DNA of 26,070 bases from a virus. Below, one piece after another: positions 1-16,720 of this stretch. The notes below the pieces were generated by a model. It saw only the letters and a list, made by a program, of their open reading frames with translations. It was not told where the DNA came from and made no database searches. The stretch covers positions 1 to 26,070 of IMG/VR virus record IMGVR_UViG_3300021373_002736. One strand, written 5' to 3'. Both the position numbers and the translations under genes were made by a program. The stretch's first letter is position 1. Every line of letters starts with the position of its first letter.

Positions 1-16
1 CCTGTGCTATTTCTTG

Positions 17-3000
17 TTATTGCACGTCAGATTTTAAACCGCCACGTCGTTCTTTTAGCTTAGGCGAATTAAATATTTTAACAAAATCCTTTGCAAATTG
101 TGGTATATTCATAAAAGCAGCTGCAGCTTGCAATGGGTTATTATCAGTATAATTTATAAAGTTTATTGTTGATAATAATTGTAATAAAGCTGATCTTCTG
201 TTAAAAAACATTATTGTACCTACAGAGCCATTTAAATATTCGTTAATAGCTTTGGTAAACTTATCAGTAGATGTTGGTTTATTAGAACCAGTTTCCATTC
301 TGTATAAAACATTTTCTAACGCTTGTCTAATGTTTTTGCCATAGGCGGCTTCTATTTTTGCTAAGTTAGAATTACTAAATATTGTATTTTTATTTTTTAT
401 AAATTCATTTAGGAATCCTTTCCTGTTAACATTTTCAGTTAAATCATTTAAATCAGAAAGTATACTATCAACATTCCAATATTCGCTAGGCTCTGGATAT
501 TTTTTGCCTTTCAATAAACTTTTTACACCCTCAGCAAGAGCCATCATGTCAGCGTTATTACCAACCTCTTTATTAAGCTTGTCTATTTCTTTTTGTGATA
601 TTCCAGGTATTTTATAACCAGCTTGCGTCCACAAGTATACTCTTAATGCTTGATCATGTGTATACACTGTGTTGCCTATAGGTTTTGCTAATTGTTTTTT
701 AATGCCTGGGAAAGCTTTTAGAACGCTAACATAGTTGTTTTTTAATTCTTGTCTAGCTTTTTCAATTTCGCCTATAGCTCTTGTGTATGGTAATATTAAA
801 GTATCATAAAAAAACTTTAAATCAGCTTCGCCTTGCTTACCCTTACCTAAAAAGTTATATAATAAACCTTCAAAGTCTTCTGCTGATGGTGGTAAAAATG
901 GTCTAAATTTTCCTTTTTTAGTGCCTGCAATTCTACCAGCAACTTGAGAAAACCTTGTTTTTGCAGGAATGTTTTTATTGCGCTCAATCATTTCATTAAA
1001 CTCACGGCTTAATGGTCTTTTGCTTTGCTTAATAGCTGTGTCTTGGGCTTTGCTATTTTCAACTAATTTTTGCGCTCCCGCTTTGTTTTCTAAATCGTAA
1101 TTAGATTTTTCAAGTTTTGTAAACACCGGGAATACCCTGAATGTTAATTCGCCTTTGCTTATTGTTGGTCTTATAACATATTGCACTTCGCCTTGCAGGG
1201 GCGGTATATCTTTATTAATGTTACTATTGCTTAAAGAAAATAATCCTTTTCCTCCAATCTGAATTAAATTAATATTTTTCTTTTGATATAAGCCTATTAT
1301 ACCGCTTGCGTCAAAACCCTTTTGATTTATTATATAATCAGGAAAAACCTCTCTTGTTTGTTTCCATTCTGCTACGTGAGTTTTGCCTCCTTTAGTATAA
1401 GAAGGATAAAATATTTTACCACTTCCTGAAATTTGAGCACCATTTTTTAAAGCTTCTTTTGCCAATCCTTCAAACTTAGATTTATTATCAGCAATAAGTT
1501 TTCTTATGCTTTCTATGCCTGGTATATTTTGCGTGAAGTTAAATGAATCGTTAAAAGTACCGTCATTGTTGAATATGTTCCGAACAGTAAAACTACCCAT
1601 TGGAGCAGTCTCGTCTAGCTTTAATTCAATAATTTGTACGGACCCGTCCTCGAAGGTTAATCTTAAATCACCATTTTGACCTTTAAATAAACCACTTTTA
1701 ACATTAGATTTAGCTAAGCGCAAAGCGTTATTAACTAATTTTTCGTAAGCTATTCCTAAATTAACACCTTTAATAGTTCTTAACCTTAAGAAATTACCAA
1801 AATTATCTTCAACCAAAGATAGCACAACTTCGTTAAATTCTTTTTCGTTTAAGCCAAAAGGTCTAGTAGCTCTATACTTTTTAAATTCTCTTCCGGCTAT
1901 GTTAGTTCTTAATAAATTTTGATATATTTGACCTGCTTGTTTAGGGTTGCCTAAAACGTCTTCAACCTTTTTGCTAAATTTAACATTGCCTCTTTCAGCT
2001 TGTCTACTAAATTCAGCTCCTAAATTAGCACCTACTTCAACACCTAATCTTTCTTGATTTGCGGCTAATGCTTCAGATACAGGGCCGTTATTTTCAAAGT
2101 CGTAACTTATTAATTCAAATGCAAGCTCTTCTGCGGCCATTTTAGAAAAAGCTTCTTTTCTTCCGCGTATAACTTCGCCATCTTCAAACATATATGCTAA
2201 ATAGTCTGCATCACTAACATTATTTACAGCATTTGGCACTCTGCGTACAATTTCAGCACCCGAAGTTCTACCGGCTAAATCTGTTGATGTAGTTTCTCTA
2301 TCTATTTTTTTACCTACCCAATCTGGATAAGGTAAAAATTTACCATCAACTTGTTTCTGTACCGCGAAGGGCATTGCTTTCATCAACCATGTAGTTGTAG
2401 CATTTTCAAGGGCGGTTTTCTTTAAGCTTAAAAAATTACGCCTTAGCTCACCATCTTTTTTACTTCCTAAGTGTTTTTTAATAATAATGTCTAATTGCTT
2501 GCCTGCTTCTTTTTTAATTTCAGCTATTAAAGGTGTAACTGTTCTGTTTTTTGAAACAGGAGTATCAATTTTATTTTTTAATACTCTAACAATAGACACA
2601 AGTTTATCAGTAGCAGCACTAATAACATTATCTGGAAACGCGTTTGCCCCTAAAAATGTTGTATACGTTTTTCTATCTTGTTGAACAGAAGGTTTTGATT
2701 CTTCTGCTACAACTTCTTTTTGTATATCCTCAAGCTGCGTTTTAGTTGTTTTGTCTAAGTAGTCAGGGTTTTTTGACACAGCATCTAAAATACGGAATTT
2801 AATTCTATCGTTTATATAACCGTATAATTCACCGCGCCCGTCAAATCTATATATTTCACCTGAAGTATATAACCTACCTATAACGTCAGAAACAAGCTCT
2901 TCTTTTAAATCTGGTGATAAATTTTGAAAACGATTATTTACTTGCACTTCAACCATGCCAAACAACTCTTTACCAATTATTTCAGCATTCCTTCCTGTTT

Positions 3001-6000
3001 GTAATTTTGCAGGATCTCCGCCGTAGTCTTGACCAATTTTATTTAATGTTTGTTTTGTAAGTTGTAGTCCTTTACTTGTTTTATCAACTTGACTTCTTTT
3101 AGCTGTTTCTTGAACAGCTCCAGGAACGCCGGTAGTTAATGCACCAATAGCTCCTTTTGTACCTAATTTTTTAAATGCTTTTGATCTTGCTAAATTACCT
3201 TTTTCAACAGAAGACGCATAATCACGGACAAAATTTAAAACATCTTTACCTTCATTAAATTTAATAGACATGCCAAACGTGTCTTGCAAAAATCTTCGTA
3301 TTACATCCGCAAGTTTTGATAAAGCTGTTTCAGGTAAAACAATATCTTTTGAAAGTATACTTTCTGATAACAATGTTAATACCTCTTCAAATTGATCGCC
3401 ATTTAAATTACCTTCACTATCTCGCTGTGTATTGATATAGTTCATCAAATCTGCTTGTGTTTCTAATTGCAGTATTTGACTATTATTTTTTTGTTTTGCA
3501 TAACTAGCAAGTCTAGCCTTGAATTGTTCGCTTAAAACTTTATCACCATTAGGAAGTGATTTAAGCTCGTTTAAAAGCTCATTACCAAGGTTTATTTGCG
3601 CTTTTACATTTCCTTTAACAGTTTTGTATAAAAGTGCATGTAAGAACTCGTGAGCGGCTGTTGTAACAACATTATCTTGTTTAGATAAATCCTTGTTTAT
3701 TAATATTTGCTGGCTACCATCTGTTCTTTGCAATATAGTACCATAAGTTTCAGCATTTTCTCGTAGCTTACTATCTTTTTCATTTTTTAATGCACTATAA
3801 TTGTCTTTATTAGCAACCAACCAATCACCTAGTTCTTGTGTGTCTTTAAATTCTTGTAACTGTAAGTCTTTTACAAGACCAGCATCCTTAGCGCTTATTA
3901 TTGTTTCAGTTTGCCTACGCGTTTCAGCTTCAATTAATATATCCTGCTTTTGTTTAGTAAGATCATTTACTTGCTCTTTAAGCTGATCTACTTTAAAATC
4001 TTTTATTTCTTGAGAAAGATTTTTATCTGATATTATTTCTTGATATTCGTTTTGTATTTTTTGAAATTCAGCATTATTGTTTATTAAAGATTGCTTTTCA
4101 ATATCGGTTAGCTGATCAACATTTTTAAAAGTATTTAACAATACTTTATTACTGTTTTCAGTAATTTTAAATATATCTTTACGTATGCTGTTTTTTATTT
4201 CATCTGAAAGATCAGGTTTTTGAAGCTCTTTTTCAAGCTTAGAAATCATTTGAAAATTTCTACCCAGCTGTTGGCTATAATCTTTAGTGATAAAGGGCTT
4301 TAAAGCGTAAGAGCCAATTACAGGTGCTTTTAAAACAACACCTGACATAAATGCACCAGAAGCAATTGCATTTGGAACGCCGTCCCATATATTTTTTTGT
4401 TTATCACCTAGAATAGCAATGTCTACTGCGTTTTCAACAAAAGTAGCAATGCCTTCGCCCCCGCCTTCTTTTAATGTATCTTTAATTAATCTACCCTTTG
4501 TTATTTCTTCTCGTATAAATTTTCTACTAGCGTCTAATACCTCGTTACGCGCAGCCCCTTTTGCACCTGTTAGTAAACCTCTAACTCTTTTTACTTGCCC
4601 TAAGGTAATTTTTTCTGTAAAGTATTCTGCAGCAGCTGTAATAACAGGAGCGGAAAACCATTGCCATGCATTGTATTCAACCCCCATTTCATTTTCCATC
4701 TCACGCATACTAGCGTATTTATTACCTCCGGCCGATGCTGCAACCGCATAAAAACCGTAAGTTGGAGCTAAAAACATAGCACCATATTGTGGTAGCTGAT
4801 TTCCAATTAGGTCAGCTGCCCAGGTGCCAAAATCTGCTAATGAATTTATATCTTGAACTTGTTTAGGTGTTTCTAGTGTGTCGCGTATATCAGCAGATGC
4901 TTTTGCTAAAGTTTTAGAAAGCGTACTTGCTGGAAAATATTGTTGCATGGCGCCAGCTATTACGTCGTCATCAACCCCCACGGCTTCGCCCATAGTAACA
5001 GCCAACCATTCAGGTAAATTTAAAACACCTGCAGCTATATCAGAACCTGATGCTATAGCTTTACCGGCTAAATTAGGAATGTTGCCGTATTCTCTTTTTA
5101 CAACATCTAGTATTAAAGCGTTGTCATTTAGTTTTTCTGCTGCTACTTTGTATAAATTATTATACGTTTGGTCAAAAACATCTAAGTCTGCATTGACTTT
5201 TTCAGCTATAATTCGACGTTCCGCAAAATCTTCAAGAGTTGCTGTTTTATTTTTTATTTTTGTGTCCAGCTCGTTTATCCTATTTTTATTTATAGATAAA
5301 TCTTGATCTAACAATTCAATCCTATCAACGTCTTTTTTAAGATTCTTTCTAGTATTTTTATCTATTTTAAGGACGTCTTTTTCAATAGCTTTTTGTAATG
5401 CTGTTGTCCTAAAACCTAGAGTGCCTGCGGCTTCGTCTAAAGCGTCACGTAAGTTTTCTGATCTTCTGTTTTTTCGTTTATCTTGTATGTAAAGATCTTG
5501 TGCTTTTTTTAAATGCTCCTCAGTTGCATTGCTATACACACCGCTGATGCCAGACTCAAAATTTACATTAGGATTTGCTTTTTCTAAATATTTATTATAA
5601 TCATCACTAATGTTAATTTCCATTACGTTAGGGTCCGAAGAAAATGCAAATTGTGTTTGAGGTTGCTCCTCATAAGGCTTAAATAAATTTGAAGCAAATT
5701 CTATATCGCCTTTATCTTGTTCTTGAAGATCTTCTTCTCTGGGCATAAATTGATCAACAGCTTTTCTTACGCGTTGTGATTCTTTTGATTCGCCTGTAAC
5801 GGTTACTTCAGGAATGTTAAGAGTCCTAGACGGGACAAGTTCTTTTTTTGCTTTTCCTCCAAAACCATTTAAATATTTTTCAAGCACATCAGTATCGCTC
5901 ATAGCTTCTCTATAACCGCCTAATTTAATTTGGCCGCTACGAACGTTATCTACAATTTCTCTTCCAGTATAAGGCTGATTACTTTTAGGTAAAATATATT

Positions 6001-6280
6001 GGTAAGCGTCTAGGTCATCTTCTTTTACACCAACTATATCAGCTTGGCCAGACAATACCGAAGAAGTATCTTCCGGCGATAAGTCCAAATCTTTTGTTTC
6101 CTGAACTAGTGCTGCTGCTTCCTGTTTTTGCGACTCCACAAGCGCAGCTTCCCTCGTTTCGTCTACTTGAAAATCCGGGTCTTCAAGTGTTTGATTTGTA
6201 ATTTCAAGATATTCTTCTAATGTAACACCGCTAGCTGCTGCCGCTTCAATAGCATCTTGTTTAGATATTTTATTAGCCAT
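17..6280 (-). CDS. Giant internal virion (ejection) protein, polyvalent type, 2087 aa
   Basis: This is the third and largest member of the ejection cassette and probably enters the host cell with the DNA. The N-terminal ~450 residues are charged and coil-rich. Small-residue, membrane-like segments lie near residues 496-520, 540-555 and 632-660, as in channel-forming internal virion proteins. An HEFLH motif (877-881) is a zincin-type HExxH site. Residues 1125-1170 resemble sigma-70 region 2 (FDGRG at 1146-1150). D1538, E1552 and K1554, with E1513 upstream, form a PD-(D/E)xK-like pattern. The C-terminal part contains a block (FFNRRSALLQ, from about 2025) that I recall from giant proteins of marine phages. 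The start is 6 bases after the 431-aa gene and lacks a Shine-Dalgarno motif. The gene ends at TAA (17-19), yet the same frame remains open to the window edge, so the protein may be truncated. A virion role is fairly secure; the individual domain calls are motif-based. Confidence 0.75.
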   Translation of the reverse strand: MANKISKQDAIEAAAASGVTLEEYLEITNQTLEDPDFQVDETREAALVESQKQEAAALVQETKDLDLSPEDTSSVLSGQADIVGVKEDDLDAYQYILPKSNQPYTGREIVDNVRSGQIKLGGYREAMSDTDVLEKYLNGFGGKAKKELVPSRTLNIPEVTVTGESKESQRVRKAVDQFMPREEDLQEQDKGDIEFASNLFKPYEEQPQTQFAFSSDPNVMEINISDDYNKYLEKANPNVNFESGISGVYSNATEEHLKKAQDLYIQDKRKNRRSENLRDALDEAAGTLGFRTTALQKAIEKDVLKIDKNTRKNLKKDVDRIELLDQDLSINKNRINELDTKIKNKTATLEDFAERRIIAEKVNADLDVFDQTYNNLYKVAAEKLNDNALILDVVKREYGNIPNLAGKAIASGSDIAAGVLNLPEWLAVTMGEAVGVDDDVIAGAMQQYFPASTLSKTLAKASADIRDTLETPKQVQDINSLADFGTWAADLIGNQLPQYGAMFLAPTYGFYAVAASAGGNKYASMREMENEMGVEYNAWQWFSAPVITAAAEYFTEKITLGQVKRVRGLLTGAKGAARNEVLDASRKFIREEITKGRLIKDTLKEGGGEGIATFVENAVDIAILGDKQKNIWDGVPNAIASGAFMSGVVLKAPVIGSYALKPFITKDYSQQLGRNFQMISKLEKELQKPDLSDEIKNSIRKDIFKITENSNKVLLNTFKNVDQLTDIEKQSLINNNAEFQKIQNEYQEIISDKNLSQEIKDFKVDQLKEQVNDLTKQKQDILIEAETRRQTETIISAKDAGLVKDLQLQEFKDTQELGDWLVANKDNYSALKNEKDSKLRENAETYGTILQRTDGSQQILINKDLSKQDNVVTTAAHEFLHALLYKTVKGNVKAQINLGNELLNELKSLPNGDKVLSEQFKARLASYAKQKNNSQILQLETQADLMNYINTQRDSEGNLNGDQFEEVLTLLSESILSKDIVLPETALSKLADVIRRFLQDTFGMSIKFNEGKDVLNFVRDYASSVEKGNLARSKAFKKLGTKGAIGALTTGVPGAVQETAKRSQVDKTSKGLQLTKQTLNKIGQDYGGDPAKLQTGRNAEIIGKELFGMVEVQVNNRFQNLSPDLKEELVSDVIGRLYTSGEIYRFDGRGELYGYINDRIKFRILDAVSKNPDYLDKTTKTQLEDIQKEVVAEESKPSVQQDRKTYTTFLGANAFPDNVISAATDKLVSIVRVLKNKIDTPVSKNRTVTPLIAEIKKEAGKQLDIIIKKHLGSKKDGELRRNFLSLKKTALENATTTWLMKAMPFAVQKQVDGKFLPYPDWVGKKIDRETTSTDLAGRTSGAEIVRRVPNAVNNVSDADYLAYMFEDGEVIRGRKEAFSKMAAEELAFELISYDFENNGPVSEALAANQERLGVEVGANLGAEFSRQAERGNVKFSKKVEDVLGNPKQAGQIYQNLLRTNIAGREFKKYRATRPFGLNEKEFNEVVLSLVEDNFGNFLRLRTIKGVNLGIAYEKLVNNALRLAKSNVKSGLFKGQNGDLRLTFEDGSVQIIELKLDETAPMGSFTVRNIFNNDGTFNDSFNFTQNIPGIESIRKLIADNKSKFEGLAKEALKNGAQISGSGKIFYPSYTKGGKTHVAEWKQTREVFPDYIINQKGFDASGIIGLYQKKNINLIQIGGKGLFSLSNSNINKDIPPLQGEVQYVIRPTISKGELTFRVFPVFTKLEKSNYDLENKAGAQKLVENSKAQDTAIKQSKRPLSREFNEMIERNKNIPAKTRFSQVAGRIAGTKKGKFRPFLPPSAEDFEGLLYNFLGKGKQGEADLKFFYDTLILPYTRAIGEIEKARQELKNNYVSVLKAFPGIKKQLAKPIGNTVYTHDQALRVYLWTQAGYKIPGISQKEIDKLNKEVGNNADMMALAEGVKSLLKGKKYPEPSEYWNVDSILSDLNDLTENVNRKGFLNEFIKNKNTIFSNSNLAKIEAAYGKNIRQALENVLYRMETGSNKPTSTDKFTKAINEYLNGSVGTIMFFNRRSALLQLLSTINFINYTDNNPLQAAAAFMNIPQFAKDFVKIFNSPKLKERRGGLKSDVQ

Positions 6281-6286
6281 TATATA

Positions 6287-7582
6287 TTATTGAATAGGAA
6301 TTAGTAGTTTATTTTTTAAAAAGTCTTCGGGATTTGGTGCCGCAACAGGAACATAATTACCGCTTTCTGTTTTTATTTCTATAACAATACCATCATTCTG
6401 TCTTTTAATTCTATATTTATTAGGAGTGGTAACGGATTTTTGGTCATTAGTAACTGGGGCATATTCAAACTCATAACTTCCAAGTTGATTATATGAGCCG
6501 TCTGTTAATAAGCTGTTATAGGCTTCTATTATTGCAGGTTGTTTATTTCTATCAGTATCCCGAAGCGGGTCGCCGCTAGGCCTATTGGATCCAGCTGGAT
6601 TGCTTTTTTCATTATATGATGCAAGACCGCTAGCTGAAACATTATCGTAATGGCCAAGCATTTGATTAGCTATATCTTCTCTAAGCTTTGGGTCGTTAAT
6701 TCCTTGCTCATAGTTAGCAGCTTCGATGCCTTCTGATAATGAAAACCCTTGAAAAAGATTATCATGCAATACCGATTGTATTCTAGCCTCACCGCCTGAT
6801 TCTAATGCGTTTATAATGTCAGCTTTGTAGGCATTTCGCTCAGGGTCACTTAATGGTCTACCTGCTGCAGCTCTATTATAAACCGTAGTTGCGTTGTTTT
6901 GAAATCCCGCGGCAAATTCGCTATCTTTTGCGTAGTAATCATCTAGCTCAGAATGTTTTATAGGCCCCTCTGGAGTAATATATGTTGGGTCCGAGGCGTT
7001 GGTCCAGTCCATTTCGTAGTTCCTTAAATTAGGATCTAACACATATTGCATTTTATTAAGCAAGCCAGGTCTTGAAATAGCAACGCCATTTGATACCTGC
7101 CCTCTTATTTTTATATATTCATCTGTAAGTTCTTGCTGATCTGTAGCAATTTGGTTAGCCGCTTGGAAAATATTTTTCTGCGAGCTAAGCTGTGTTTGTA
7201 AGTCTATATATTCCGAAGAATTTGCTCCAAATTGTTTACGCACTACGTCAGCTTGTAGAGCAAGATTTCCTGCATTTTGTTTTGTAGTAAATAATAAATT
7301 TTCAAGGCTTGCGCGCATTGCATTAGGTACTTTCTCAGGGTTATAATTAGCACCTACCCTGCCAATAGAATTAGCAGCTAAAATATCTAAACGTTTTTTT
7401 TCTTGCTTAGCCTCAGCCTCTTCCTGCAACTTTTGTCTCCTCGCTATTTCTCTTTCTTTTTCCTGGCTTTTAATAACAGGATCTAGAGTTTTATCAAAAG
7501 CGGCTGTAAATGCAGCCATTGGTGCTGCTTGGTTTCTAAATCCTCTAGCAAATGCCGCATTTAAATCTCTTTGTGTTGCCAT
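6287..7582 (-). CDS. Internal virion / ejection protein, gp15-like position, 431 aa
   Basis: This is probably the second ejection protein. The N-terminus (MATQRDLNAAFARGF) is followed by a long, highly charged and Q/K/E-rich helical stretch (about 35-70) and then mostly helical sequence with many Asn, Ala and Gln. I see no catalytic motif, signal peptide or long hydrophobic segment. The assignment rests on position. It lies between a 213-aa Gly/Ala/Gln-rich protein and a 2087-aa giant protein, matching the size and order of the T7 internal core proteins gp14, gp15 and gp16. The gap to the next gene is 6 bases and that to the previous gene 18 bases, so the three are co-transcribed. The start is preceded only by A and T bases. 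An alternative is a generic structural protein. Function is inferred; that it is coding is secure. Confidence 0.6.
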   Translation of the reverse strand: MATQRDLNAAFARGFRNQAAPMAAFTAAFDKTLDPVIKSQEKEREIARRQKLQEEAEAKQEKKRLDILAANSIGRVGANYNPEKVPNAMRASLENLLFTTKQNAGNLALQADVVRKQFGANSSEYIDLQTQLSSQKNIFQAANQIATDQQELTDEYIKIRGQVSNGVAISRPGLLNKMQYVLDPNLRNYEMDWTNASDPTYITPEGPIKHSELDDYYAKDSEFAAGFQNNATTVYNRAAAGRPLSDPERNAYKADIINALESGGEARIQSVLHDNLFQGFSLSEGIEAANYEQGINDPKLREDIANQMLGHYDNVSASGLASYNEKSNPAGSNRPSGDPLRDTDRNKQPAIIEAYNSLLTDGSYNQLGSYEFEYAPVTNDQKSVTTPNKYRIKRQNDGIVIEIKTESGNYVPVAAPNPEDFLKNKLLIPIQ

Positions 7583-8281: not shown

Positions 8282-11200
8282 TTAACTACTTAACGATATT
8301 TCGCTTCCAACCGAATAAAGCTCTTTTTTTACAGTAGAGGTATTTGCCATAGTTATTTCTGCATAATATCCTAAAATTCCTGAAGTATTAAATTTATTAT
8401 TTTTTACAAAATAACTAAATGCATTTGCCGGAGCACTATCAAGTGTAATAGTATTACCAGAAATTGCTGTTACAGCTTTGCCTGTATTATTGCCAAGCAT
8501 TGTGTTATCATAAACTATATCGCCAATTTGTATTGCATTGTTTAAATTAGTAAAAGTTGCATCGTTTGATGATATACTTGTTGGTGTTCCTAACCCTTGT
8601 ACATTTAATGCTTTTAAATCTAAATCTGCTTTAGTAGTTTGCGTTTCGCCAGATATATAATTATAGTATATACCTTCTTTTTCTATAAAGCTAGGCACAT
8701 TACCTGTTTGTTTGTCTGTAATTATATTACTAGATGTCCACCCACTGTCGCCCTGATAGTTTAATGTTCTAAAGTTTTTAACACTACCTGGGGAATCATT
8801 TAATATAAGCGTAACTTCTGAATCTGTTTTAGTACCATAAAAAGTATTTCTAGTTTCGTTATCATGCGAAAATATTTTACCATCTTTGAATGTGTAGTAT
8901 ATGTTATTAAGACTAACGCCCGCCTCTGGTATAAAGCTTTTACGACTTGTCCAACCACGAACACCTTCCGAAAAAGAAACCGTGTCTGCTTCGTTTTCAA
9001 ATGTTAAGTTATACAAACCTTTATTAGTATCATATGTACCTAAAATTAATCCAGTTTCAGTCGCAAGATTATCTTTAAAGTAATCTTTCATACCGTATTC
9101 GGATATTTCAGTCAAGCCATCCATAGACAATCTTAATACTTTACCTCTGTTTTTATCTGTAAAATATGCTCTATATGTAAAATCAACAAAGCTTTCTGGG
9201 TTTTTACTAATACCGTATGAGCCAAACGTTGCCGGTATAACAGCTTGCCCTAAGACTCTATTTGTGGCTGTTAGTTGTGGATTTCCATCAGCATTAAATA
9301 AAGCATCTTTGTTAGCTAATATTTTTACAACGCGATCTTCACACAAAGCAATTAAATCAGTGTCTCTAGCATGCAATTTTTGAACGCTACCATACTCCGG
9401 ATTTAAGTTTTTTGTTATAGGCTCTGCAATAATAAATTGGTTTAATCTATTAGCTCCATTTTTACTATTATATATGCCTGAAAATATTAAACCAGACTTC
9501 ATATTTTCTTCGCCGTAATTGTCTTCAAATACGGTAGATACTCTAACACCTTTACCAATTGTTGGCGCATTAAAGTCATCACGAATTCTATCTGATTCTA
9601 CTCCATTATTAAAGCTAATACAATTTGTATATTCTAAATCTTTTGGGGTACCAAGCTGGTCTATTGCATATGTTTGCTCTGTTTCGTAATAAATATCTAA
9701 AACGCCATCTTCGGGCTCTATTTCAAATACCGGCGGATTAATTGGCGTATTATTACCAATTAAAGTAAATTCCCTTACGTCTACAACAAAATCAACGCTC
9801 GCAGCTGGGAAATTTGTTTCTAAAAGTTTATTAAACTTTATTGCATAATATTTATGATTATCATATTCCCAGTCTACTACGTCAATTATTTTATAATTAG
9901 GATATTCTGATATATCATTATATTTATTATCTATATCTGTATATCCTGAGAATCTTATATAATTCCCTTTTTCTAGGCCTTGCCCAAATGGATCAGTTGT
10001 ATATTTAGAGCGCGCGTCTGTCCAATAATCGTCAGTCCTAATAATTAAATGATAACCAGCCCCTAAAGTTTGAGTATAATATGAACCACCTGTTAAAGCC
10101 GCTGTAGTAGTACTTGCATTTACCCAAATATATTGTCTTTCAGCGGTGCTATTGTCCACCCCGTCAAACGGGTAAGTAGTAGCAGCTGTAATCAAGCTAT
10201 CTTCGCTTGCAGATTCTACTAAAGCTTCTTTTAATTGTGACGAATTATTTAGTTTTATAAAAAATTTGCCAGCATAAGCGGGATTACCAGTGTCGTCTTC
10301 AACTGTTATAAATTGAATAGCGCACGAATATTCTGAGTCGTCGGCATTAGTTAAATATATAATGTTAACGTCTTCGCCAAACTGTTCTTCAAATACTATT
10401 TCCGCCTCGTCTTGGTCAGCATCACCAACGCCATCTTGCTCTATTGCTTTTATTGTGTAAATATTAGATTTGGCAGCAGTACCTTTTCTTATAAATCTTA
10501 ATTTAGCTCCAATAGTTGCAGCTGCAAAAAAATCTCCCGAGACTTCGTTTGGCGAGTGGCCTAGTTCTTGAGCTCTTTCTAGCTGAATTGTGTTATGACC
10601 CGGAACAGGCGTTAGGCCAGCTTGTTTGGTTAATTGTGGTGTTCCATCGGCATAGTCTGTAGCAAAAAAAACTTCATCTGCAGTAAAAGTTACCTTTTCT
10701 TTTTCTGCTAAAAATTTAGGCGGCTCACTGTCTTTAGCAAGAACTTTAAATTTATTATTACTTGGTATTTTGTAAGCAGTATTGCCAGATTGTTTTTTAA
10801 GTATTAAAATATCATCTTCAGAAACTTTATTTGTTTCAGATGATGGAAAAGCACAATATACATATCCAGTTTCTGTATCTTCATATATATCACTAACACA
10901 TATATTATAATATGGATTTGATACTTCTTTTATATAATATTTATAGTGCGTTAATTCAGACGGCAAAGAAGCATGTGTTGTGCTAACTCTAAAGGCTGAA
11001 TTTAAATCTGCGTTTACTGAATTAATTTTTATTACACCGCTAGTATCCGTAAATACGGGTGTTTGGCGGCTATATTCATCTTGGTATACAATACCGAATT
11101 GATATGTTCTACCTGATTTTATTGAAAACTTTTGCGAAGTATCACTTCTTGAAATAGCAGAAACTGTAAATGATGGATTTGTAGTTATATTAAAGTTTTG

Positions 11201-12544
11201 TTGGTAGTTTCCAAAAATTAATCTATTACCTGTAATTTCTAAAGCTTTTGCTTTTCTAGGTATACTATCAAAAGACCTTAGTATTTGGTTAGATTGTATA
11301 GTCTTATATATTTGTTCGTCTTTAACCTCAAGGGTTGCTGGAAAGCTACCACCTGATTTCTTTAAACTTTCAACAATATAAATATTAGAGCTTACTGAAT
11401 CTTTATATAATATTTCTATTTCTTCTATATCGGCCTGGTAGTTGCTAGCACTAGGAGAGGTGAACCAGCCCTCAAGCTTAAGTTCTCTTACTGTATTCAC
11501 CATGCCTAGATTATAGCCATCCTGCGCATCGTATTTAAAATCACCCGGTGTAAATGCCGGCAAAGAAAATGGGGCCATTATTGAAAACTGGCCGTTAGTA
11601 TATTTATATCTATATGAAAATTTAGCAAACTTTAATTCAAATAATGGGTCTTCTTCTTCCAGTAAGCATGTATATTCAACACTATCATCTTCAATTTCGG
11701 CTGTTTTAGAAAGAAGTTTTCCAGTAAAACTAGTTCCTGGGTCTGAGTGAACAGTAAGCTCTACTCTTAATACAGATTCTATAGTTTCTCCAAATTCTCC
11801 TGAAAATGAGTTTTTCATTTCAATAACGTCGCCTACTTGATAATTAGGGTCAGCACTAAAATTACCAGAAAAAGTATCATCAACTTCTACCTCTGTAAAA
11901 TTTTTAGTAAATGTTATTGCAGTACCGCCCTCTGTTCCAACTCCGCCTCGTAAACTTTGATCAATTGTTTCAAACGTAGGTGCATTAAGAGGCCCTTTTT
12001 TTGCTACAGTAATCCTGTCTTCTGATAAATTAAATGTATTTATTGTGTCATTTTCAAAATCAGTAATACCACCAAATCTGCTAGAATCACCCCAGTATTC
12101 TATATCAACTTGTTTTGGCTCTGAATAGTTATCTGTAAAGTATAGTATTTTGTCTAATATATTAATGCCTGTGATATATCTTGTTTCATCAAACTGCAAA
12201 ATATTATCGCTAACTTCTTCTAAAAGTATAGCTTTAACATTTGTGCCGTCATACTCAAATATACCATTTCGATTTGTTCCAGCGACTAGCCAATATATTT
12301 TGTCATGCTCAGAGTCTTTTATGGCGCCTACACATTTACCGCCAACTAAGTTCATAGCAGAACCATTTGGGGATACTGGCAATTCGGTATTTCCCAAAAT
12401 ATTTTGCATCACACCAACATTAGCGCCTTCTGAATATGAAACGTCAATATTTAATGCGTCTCTATATTCGCCTTTTGGAATAAGTCGTTCATCAAGGTCT
12501 TTATTCATTTTACCATTGAGGAACATGTTTTTAATCTCCGGCAT
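8282..12544 (-). CDS. Tail muzzle / stabilisation protein, 1420 aa
   Basis: This is a large beta-rich tail protein, probably the distal tail nozzle or muzzle that closes the short tail. The N-terminal signature (MFLNGKMNKDLDERLIPKGE, from residue 7) is the FxxGMNxDLxxRxxPxGEYRDAxN type of start that I recall from P22 gp10-like and crAss-like tail stabilisation proteins. A second recognisable block lies at about residues 1050-1160 (YGSVQKLHARD, YGISKNPESF, YFTDKNRGKVLRLSMDGLTE). In such proteins it forms part of a propeller-like domain. The centre (about 200-1000) is Thr/Ser/Asn/Asp-rich with many short beta-like strands and varied insertions. There is no signal peptide or membrane segment. 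The start lies 3 bases after the 375-aa gene, with no Shine-Dalgarno motif. The length is much greater than T7 gp12 or P22 gp10 and closer to crAss-like muzzle proteins. A minor alternative is a receptor-binding tail protein. Confidence 0.72.
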   Translation of the reverse strand: MPEIKNMFLNGKMNKDLDERLIPKGEYRDALNIDVSYSEGANVGVMQNILGNTELPVSPNGSAMNLVGGKCVGAIKDSEHDKIYWLVAGTNRNGIFEYDGTNVKAILLEEVSDNILQFDETRYITGINILDKILYFTDNYSEPKQVDIEYWGDSSRFGGITDFENDTINTFNLSEDRITVAKKGPLNAPTFETIDQSLRGGVGTEGGTAITFTKNFTEVEVDDTFSGNFSADPNYQVGDVIEMKNSFSGEFGETIESVLRVELTVHSDPGTSFTGKLLSKTAEIEDDSVEYTCLLEEEDPLFELKFAKFSYRYKYTNGQFSIMAPFSLPAFTPGDFKYDAQDGYNLGMVNTVRELKLEGWFTSPSASNYQADIEEIEILYKDSVSSNIYIVESLKKSGGSFPATLEVKDEQIYKTIQSNQILRSFDSIPRKAKALEITGNRLIFGNYQQNFNITTNPSFTVSAISRSDTSQKFSIKSGRTYQFGIVYQDEYSRQTPVFTDTSGVIKINSVNADLNSAFRVSTTHASLPSELTHYKYYIKEVSNPYYNICVSDIYEDTETGYVYCAFPSSETNKVSEDDILILKKQSGNTAYKIPSNNKFKVLAKDSEPPKFLAEKEKVTFTADEVFFATDYADGTPQLTKQAGLTPVPGHNTIQLERAQELGHSPNEVSGDFFAAATIGAKLRFIRKGTAAKSNIYTIKAIEQDGVGDADQDEAEIVFEEQFGEDVNIIYLTNADDSEYSCAIQFITVEDDTGNPAYAGKFFIKLNNSSQLKEALVESASEDSLITAATTYPFDGVDNSTAERQYIWVNASTTTAALTGGSYYTQTLGAGYHLIIRTDDYWTDARSKYTTDPFGQGLEKGNYIRFSGYTDIDNKYNDISEYPNYKIIDVVDWEYDNHKYYAIKFNKLLETNFPAASVDFVVDVREFTLIGNNTPINPPVFEIEPEDGVLDIYYETEQTYAIDQLGTPKDLEYTNCISFNNGVESDRIRDDFNAPTIGKGVRVSTVFEDNYGEENMKSGLIFSGIYNSKNGANRLNQFIIAEPITKNLNPEYGSVQKLHARDTDLIALCEDRVVKILANKDALFNADGNPQLTATNRVLGQAVIPATFGSYGISKNPESFVDFTYRAYFTDKNRGKVLRLSMDGLTEISEYGMKDYFKDNLATETGLILGTYDTNKGLYNLTFENEADTVSFSEGVRGWTSRKSFIPEAGVSLNNIYYTFKDGKIFSHDNETRNTFYGTKTDSEVTLILNDSPGSVKNFRTLNYQGDSGWTSSNIITDKQTGNVPSFIEKEGIYYNYISGETQTTKADLDLKALNVQGLGTPTSISSNDATFTNLNNAIQIGDIVYDNTMLGNNTGKAVTAISGNTITLDSAPANAFSYFVKNNKFNTSGILGYYAEITMANTSTVKKELYSVGSEISLSS

Positions 12545-15307: not shown

Positions 15308-16720
15308 TTATGCGTTGAAAAGTACGAAGTTATTCGCAGCTTGTACAACTAAACATCTTTCAGATAAGTAGTGTACTTCCATCGCGTCAAGATCGCTAGT
15401 AGTAGCACCACCTACTGAACCAGTTACCCAAGATTTCATTCTTCGGTCATCAGCTTCTGACGCACGGTAACGTACGTGTAAGAATGGGCGACGAATGTTT
15501 TTACCTAGAGCTTGGTCATATACAGATGAAGTACCAGCAGGAACTAATAGTCCTTTAATGTCATTAATGAATCCACGCGTTTGACCATCATTAAGATATT
15601 TCCAGTCAGACTTATAGAAATCATAAGAACCTCTACGGAATCCAGAGAATCCAAGATTCAATGCCATATCTTCGCTGTTTTCAAATACCCCGTAAGAAGT
15701 ACCACCTGAACCATAAGAATTCTGAGAAGCCAACCAATCATCAATACGTAGGTTACGCTCACGGTTAAGGAAGAACATATTTTCTTCAATAGCTCCTTGA
15801 GCATCTAGCTTAGCAATTAAATCTTTAATATCAGCAGTAGTATCAGCAGCAGTATCGCTATCAAACATAGTGGCGGTATGCCCACGAGATTCGATAGCAG
15901 CGAAAAGACCTTCAGTACCAGCATCATCGCCAGCAGCAGTAAGTTGATTTTCAACTGTAGATGCAGCAACAACTTTTTCAGCTTCAACAAGCGTCATTTC
16001 TAAATAATCTTCGAAACGAGTACGAGTTTCACCCTCAGCTTTAATGTACCATAAGTATCCAGCCTCACCAGATTCACCAGAAACTTCTACCCAACCAATT
16101 TGAGCGGCATCAGATCCTGACACTTCAAATTTATCTTTAATGATAATAGGTTTGTTAGTAAAAGTAGTAAAAGAAGGATTGATAGTATCACCTGCCATTC
16201 CAGATTTACCTTTTGCAAATTCAGAACCAAATACAAAAAGTTTTAGTCCATCGCCGTCTGCATAGTTAGTATCTAGACTAGCCGCATCATACGGAAGTAC
16301 TGTAATTTCTGTGCTAGAAGCTACAGCGGAAACATAACCTTTTGTAGTAGTAGTTCCATCAGAAAGAACAACTGTATTACCTACACGAATTGCGTGACCG
16401 CCTGAAATTTCTACTGTACCAGCAGCAGCGTCGCCAGCAGTAGCACCAATTTTACAGCCACCACCTGCAGTCCCATCACCGTAAGAAAGGTGCAAACGAC
16501 CTTGCTCAGACCAAATAACTTGATCAGAAGCCATAGGCATTTCTGCTCCTACCATACGTAAGAAAGAAGATACAGAACGATTTCCATAACGCTCTACTTC
16601 TTGTTCATATAATTCAGGTAGATATTGTTGTGCCCACCCGTTGTTTTGAATGTCTAAATAATTTGAGGATAACGCTTTCTTTGCAGGATAAGTGTCAGTC
16701 CCTTGAAATGTAATTGCCAT
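15308..16720 (-). CDS. Major capsid protein, HK97-fold type, 470 aa
   Basis: This is the main shell protein. The assignment rests on position (directly after a scaffold-like gene and after terminase and portal), length, and the N-terminal segment (ALSSNYLDIQNNGWAQQYLP, then ELYEQEVERYGNRSVSSFL) that I recall from capsid proteins of marine podoviruses. The C-terminal half carries RRSPF-type and FLHVRYRASEADDRR-type segments, and the end (SERCLVVQAANNFVLFNA) is beta-rich. Residues ~90-165 form a Gly/Thr/Val-rich beta insertion (HAIRVGNTVVLSDGTTTTKG) that could be a surface or E-loop domain. A second helical insertion at ~260-330 is acidic. There is no N-terminal protease-cleaved delta domain, consistent with the separate scaffold gene. 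The start is 10 bases after the scaffold stop, and a terminator follows. Confidence 0.85.
   Translation of the reverse strand: MAITFQGTDTYPAKKALSSNYLDIQNNGWAQQYLPELYEQEVERYGNRSVSSFLRMVGAEMPMASDQVIWSEQGRLHLSYGDGTAGGGCKIGATAGDAAAGTVEISGGHAIRVGNTVVLSDGTTTTKGYVSAVASSTEITVLPYDAASLDTNYADGDGLKLFVFGSEFAKGKSGMAGDTINPSFTTFTNKPIIIKDKFEVSGSDAAQIGWVEVSGESGEAGYLWYIKAEGETRTRFEDYLEMTLVEAEKVVAASTVENQLTAAGDDAGTEGLFAAIESRGHTATMFDSDTAADTTADIKDLIAKLDAQGAIEENMFFLNRERNLRIDDWLASQNSYGSGGTSYGVFENSEDMALNLGFSGFRRGSYDFYKSDWKYLNDGQTRGFINDIKGLLVPAGTSSVYDQALGKNIRRPFLHVRYRASEADDRRMKSWVTGSVGGATTSDLDAMEVHYLSERCLVVQAANNFVLFNA

Follow-up and report, generated by a model that had tools for sequence, protein, structure and literature searches.

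Does the giant virion-protein gene at the edge of this viral record really stop where its reading frame stops, or has a longer gene been made to look shorter by a wrong base where the assembled fragment ends? The window, that is, the whole stretch of DNA analysed here (26,070 bp), spans the complete linear record IMGVR_UViG_3300021373_002736. On its minus strand, a frame of 2087 aa ends in ...RGGLKSDVQ and is closed by a TAA (table 1). Past this codon, the same frame can be followed only as QEIAQ, since the record edge is reached 16 nt beyond the stop. The first-pass annotation had described this arrangement (GGLKSDVQ, then TAA, then QEIAQ) within positions 1-40, and we confirmed both the reading and the location. 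Terminal repeats, direct or inverted, were sought at the record ends and none was found; circular permutation was likewise unsupported. Because the window is the whole record and has no end repeat, no more than 19 nt lie between the TAA and the terminus of the assembled fragment, a distance shorter than a read (positions 17-19 of 26,070). An in-frame stop in a giant gene of a metagenomic virus calls for caution: the distance to the contig edge and the state of the relatives should be checked before biological conclusions are drawn. A real stop would deprive the protein of a strongly conserved stretch of ~400 aa at its C-terminus, a surprising loss. The apparent truncation is most likely not a real feature of the phage.

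Table 1. Features at the giant-gene end of the record (window positions).
Feature	Position	Strand	Basis
Giant virion-protein gene, with 2087 codons in this record (nearest relative: ~2500 aa)	17..6280	-	
TAA stop interrupting the giant frame; Glu codon in relatives (Ala in one)	17..19	-	Sequence and alignment of relatives
QEIAQ, five in-frame codons past the stop; conserved in relatives, silent differences only versus L002	2..16	-	
Edge of the assembly, lacking an end repeat and any further sequence	1..19		

At the site itself, the relatives agree. All 32 aligned relatives have a residue at the position of the stop (Glu in 31, Ala in one), none has a stop, and every one of them continues. The first-pass annotation had expected, from homologues, that the sequence should run on past this point; the 32 relatives do carry on, as RGGLKSDVQEQEIA. 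The frame ends 365-437 aa past the site in 30 of the 32. One of the other two runs off its contig, and the second (L026) has a later frameshift, so that its giant frame ends early, at 236 aa. A degenerate DNA pattern, with any base allowed at the variable position, matched 18 contigs, and all 18 have GAA. The lesion is thus absent from the independent assemblies of the relatives (0/32 aligned relatives and 0/18 pattern matches). The giant proteins nearest to this one come from uncultured marine phages, and the closest of these, L002 (IMGVR_UViG_3300035145_000576), also has GAA at the site, and its frame of 2503 aa is 416 aa longer than that of the window. The two giant proteins are 92% identical in amino acids over their shared length (91% in nucleotides over window 3-5413), and the residues flanking the site are the same in both, the window itself reading TAA there before it runs out. 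Judging from this match on both sides, the similarity to L002 across the stop is not a matter of chance. Two further proposals of the earlier reading hold as well: the region around the stop is conserved, and a single base change from GAA suffices to produce it. No same-strain copy of the site turned up when viral contigs were searched for the exact 30-mer, nor did a degenerate search bring one to light in bacterial or archaeal species genomes. For another close relative, L150 (99% amino acid identity in the portal, 90% nucleotide identity over 10.7 kb), the part compared ends short of the giant gene.

The comparison with L002 can be taken to the level of single codons. Over 2092 codon pairs, 1538 are identical, 376 differ silently, 177 differ by replacement and 1 by nonsense. 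The last 93 codons contain 19 silent differences, no replacement and the one nonsense codon; in the five codons past the stop there are 3 silent differences and, again, no replacement. On this pattern, the DNA past the stop is homologous coding sequence and not a chimeric join. The frame there was under coding constraint until very recently, although five codons are few and alone give a modest signal. Recent constraint past the stop argues against an old pseudogene; an error, a fresh mutation and readthrough are all compatible with it. The change implied on the coding strand, G>T, belongs to a rare class between the window and L002 (15 of 639 differences). By calculation, ~5.3% of single-base changes in the giant frame would yield a stop.

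Elsewhere in the window, the genes are intact. Seventeen window genes were set against L002 and three larger related contigs, and no other gene was found interrupted. TAA, TGA and TAG all serve as ordinary terminators in these genes, and TAA closes 13 of the 16 other listed genes, mostly where the genes of the relatives end. A recoded genetic code, with TAA read as an amino acid, would have this single codon as its only instance: TAA is the usual terminator, it does not recur inside the window genes, and no tRNA gene was found within the window. We therefore rejected recoding, the probability of which is close to negligible; the first-pass annotation had already thought it unlikely.

How often are stops of this kind met at contig ends and inside genes? 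The control set for contig ends comprised the relatives fetched with terminase and portal, plus the window. Among the other ends that cut a conserved gene, none of 139 carries an in-frame stop, and the end of the window stands alone among 140. Inside genes, ~216,000 aligned codons yielded two believable nonsense codons, both in portal genes, plus one apparently spurious alignment. The interior background is thus ~1 in 100,000 codons, and is itself partly error. In this collection, nonsense errors at contig ends are uncommon, and interior stops are rare too. For a randomly placed single lesion, the probability of falling in the outermost 19 nt at one end or the other is ~0.0015, a positional argument that is weakened by the window having been selected for its stop (and no end-error rate should be derived from the window). 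A Fisher-type comparison of contigs that end within the giant gene comprised just four, the window among them, and was given no weight. As to contig ends in general, SOAPdenovo removes k bases from them so that erroneous bases are left out (PMC4252104), and contigs frequently break off where coverage dips (PMC7953547).

Some of these contigs have lesions of their own. The two interior portal stops, a TAA (L181:1602) and a TAG (L199:2553), are single in-frame stops in otherwise intact genes, far from contig ends, and look like sporadic errors or mutations. L026 (contig 3300046171_000154) has a comparable lesion in its giant gene, which is disrupted by a 1-nt insertion at a point 109 nt short of the contig end. 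The terminase gene of this contig is split between two frames near 15,400 (an interior frameshift), and because this comes in addition to the end insertion, the contig may be error-prone throughout.

With regard to the cause of the stop, we infer that the TAA is very probably a single-base sequencing or assembly error. That is, one wrong base at the extreme end of a metagenomic contig would create the TAA, and the real gene would most likely run ~400 codons further, as it does in the relatives, to give one giant virion protein of ~2500 aa. This reading is favoured because the stop falls 17-19 nt short of the record edge and is unique among the relatives, the frame beyond it is constrained and the other genes are intact. 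The rarity of the G>T class, the low probability of a random lesion so near an end and the literature on contig-end errors and coverage dips favour it further. On the other hand, the 139 control ends interrupting a conserved gene were all free of stops, and a single strain was seen, which leaves room for a private, real mutation. Such a genuine nonsense mutation in the phage lineage, whether of recent origin or present in a defective minority genome, would leave the protein ~400 aa shorter. It would take the change of a single base from GAA, it would agree with the lack of decay in the frame beyond (if very recent), and the two portal codons show that nonsense codons do occur sporadically in relatives. 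Yet we consider it unlikely: all relatives strongly conserve the C-terminal region that would be missing, so its loss should be harmful, and at the interior background given above a real stop in the very last codons of a contig is improbable.

Readings in which the stop is real and functional fare worse. Programmed stop-codon readthrough, or a protein made of two subunits joined at this point, would account for a frame that is open and conserved past the stop, and constraint is indeed seen on both sides of it. But the stop is found in 0/32 relatives, as is any split or gene boundary at the site; a single frame crosses it in all of them, with no start of a second gene. The sequence visible past the stop, where a restart site or a readthrough signal would be looked for, amounts to five codons. 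We regard this pair of explanations as very improbable. Less probable still is a real, lineage-specific TAA at which partial readthrough by the ribosome would give rise to two forms of the giant protein, one short and one long. In sum, nothing supports programmed readthrough, a protein in two parts or a recoded code. The first-pass annotation had listed four options, of which an error and a chance nonsense mutation are the ones now favoured, while a split protein and readthrough lost support with the finding that no relative is split or stopped there.

The identity of the giant protein is approached through its neighbourhood. Around it are genes with matches to terminase, portal, virion structural and tail-fibre families. 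Two smaller genes separate the giant gene from the gene for a 1420-aa muzzle-type protein, which is located upstream. Residues ~466-782 match, at 21-28%, an annotated structural protein of Flavobacterium phage elemo (QMP84890.1) and its counterparts in Tenacibaculum phage Gundel_1 and Cellulophaga phage Calle_1, the latter two being podoviral flavophages (PMC8776804). In elemo, the matching gene is very large and is the last of the structural block. The proteins of all three phages are without a match to the C-terminal part around the window's stop. In crassviruses, cargo proteins are stored in the capsid and tail and are ejected (PMC10172136). The window has large proteins encoded beside a protein with the crassvirus muzzle C-terminal domain, but the analogy with these cargo proteins (phi-crAss001 gp45-gp50; PMC10172136) is one of position only, as no sequence relation between any of them and the giant protein was detected. 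By analogy with crassviruses, the giant protein is probably an ejected cargo protein. The label of ejection protein given to it at first is therefore plausible from gene order and from the flavophage structural-protein match, but no profile library recognises the protein. The full sequence had no match in Pfam or PHROGs, and so none to a profile of an internal virion or cargo family, and the C-terminal part gave nothing convincing against Pfam, PHROGs or the PDB. For the last 510 aa of L002, structure prediction reached a mean pLDDT of 48, too poor for a fold search.

Other features of the giant protein can be recorded here. It contains an HEFLH motif at residue 877 (frame 17-6280, minus strand), of the HExxH, metallopeptidase-like form; across an alignment of five full-length relatives, His877, Glu878 and His881 never vary. 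A conserved segment at window 2711-3040 (minus strand) carries the motif DGRGxLYGF(I/L)NxRIxxRIxD and resembles sigma-70 region 2 by eye. This look of residues ~1081-1190 was unsupported by Pfam and PDB searches.

The 1420-aa protein (window 8282-12544) contains the crassvirus muzzle C-terminal domain PF25729, scored above the cut-off. By sequence, this domain would link the tail of this marine phage group to the crassvirus tail. Finally, the giant gene is 91% identical in nucleotides to that of contig 3300035145_000576, falling to 80% at its 5' end (window 3-6569 versus L002/L067-L068). In the neighbouring genes the two contigs are much less alike, with amino acid identities of 33-48% in the muzzle-type protein, 62% in the major structural protein and 69% in the portal. 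Because the giant gene is far closer between the two contigs than its neighbours are, the comparison suggests that it was recently exchanged as a module.
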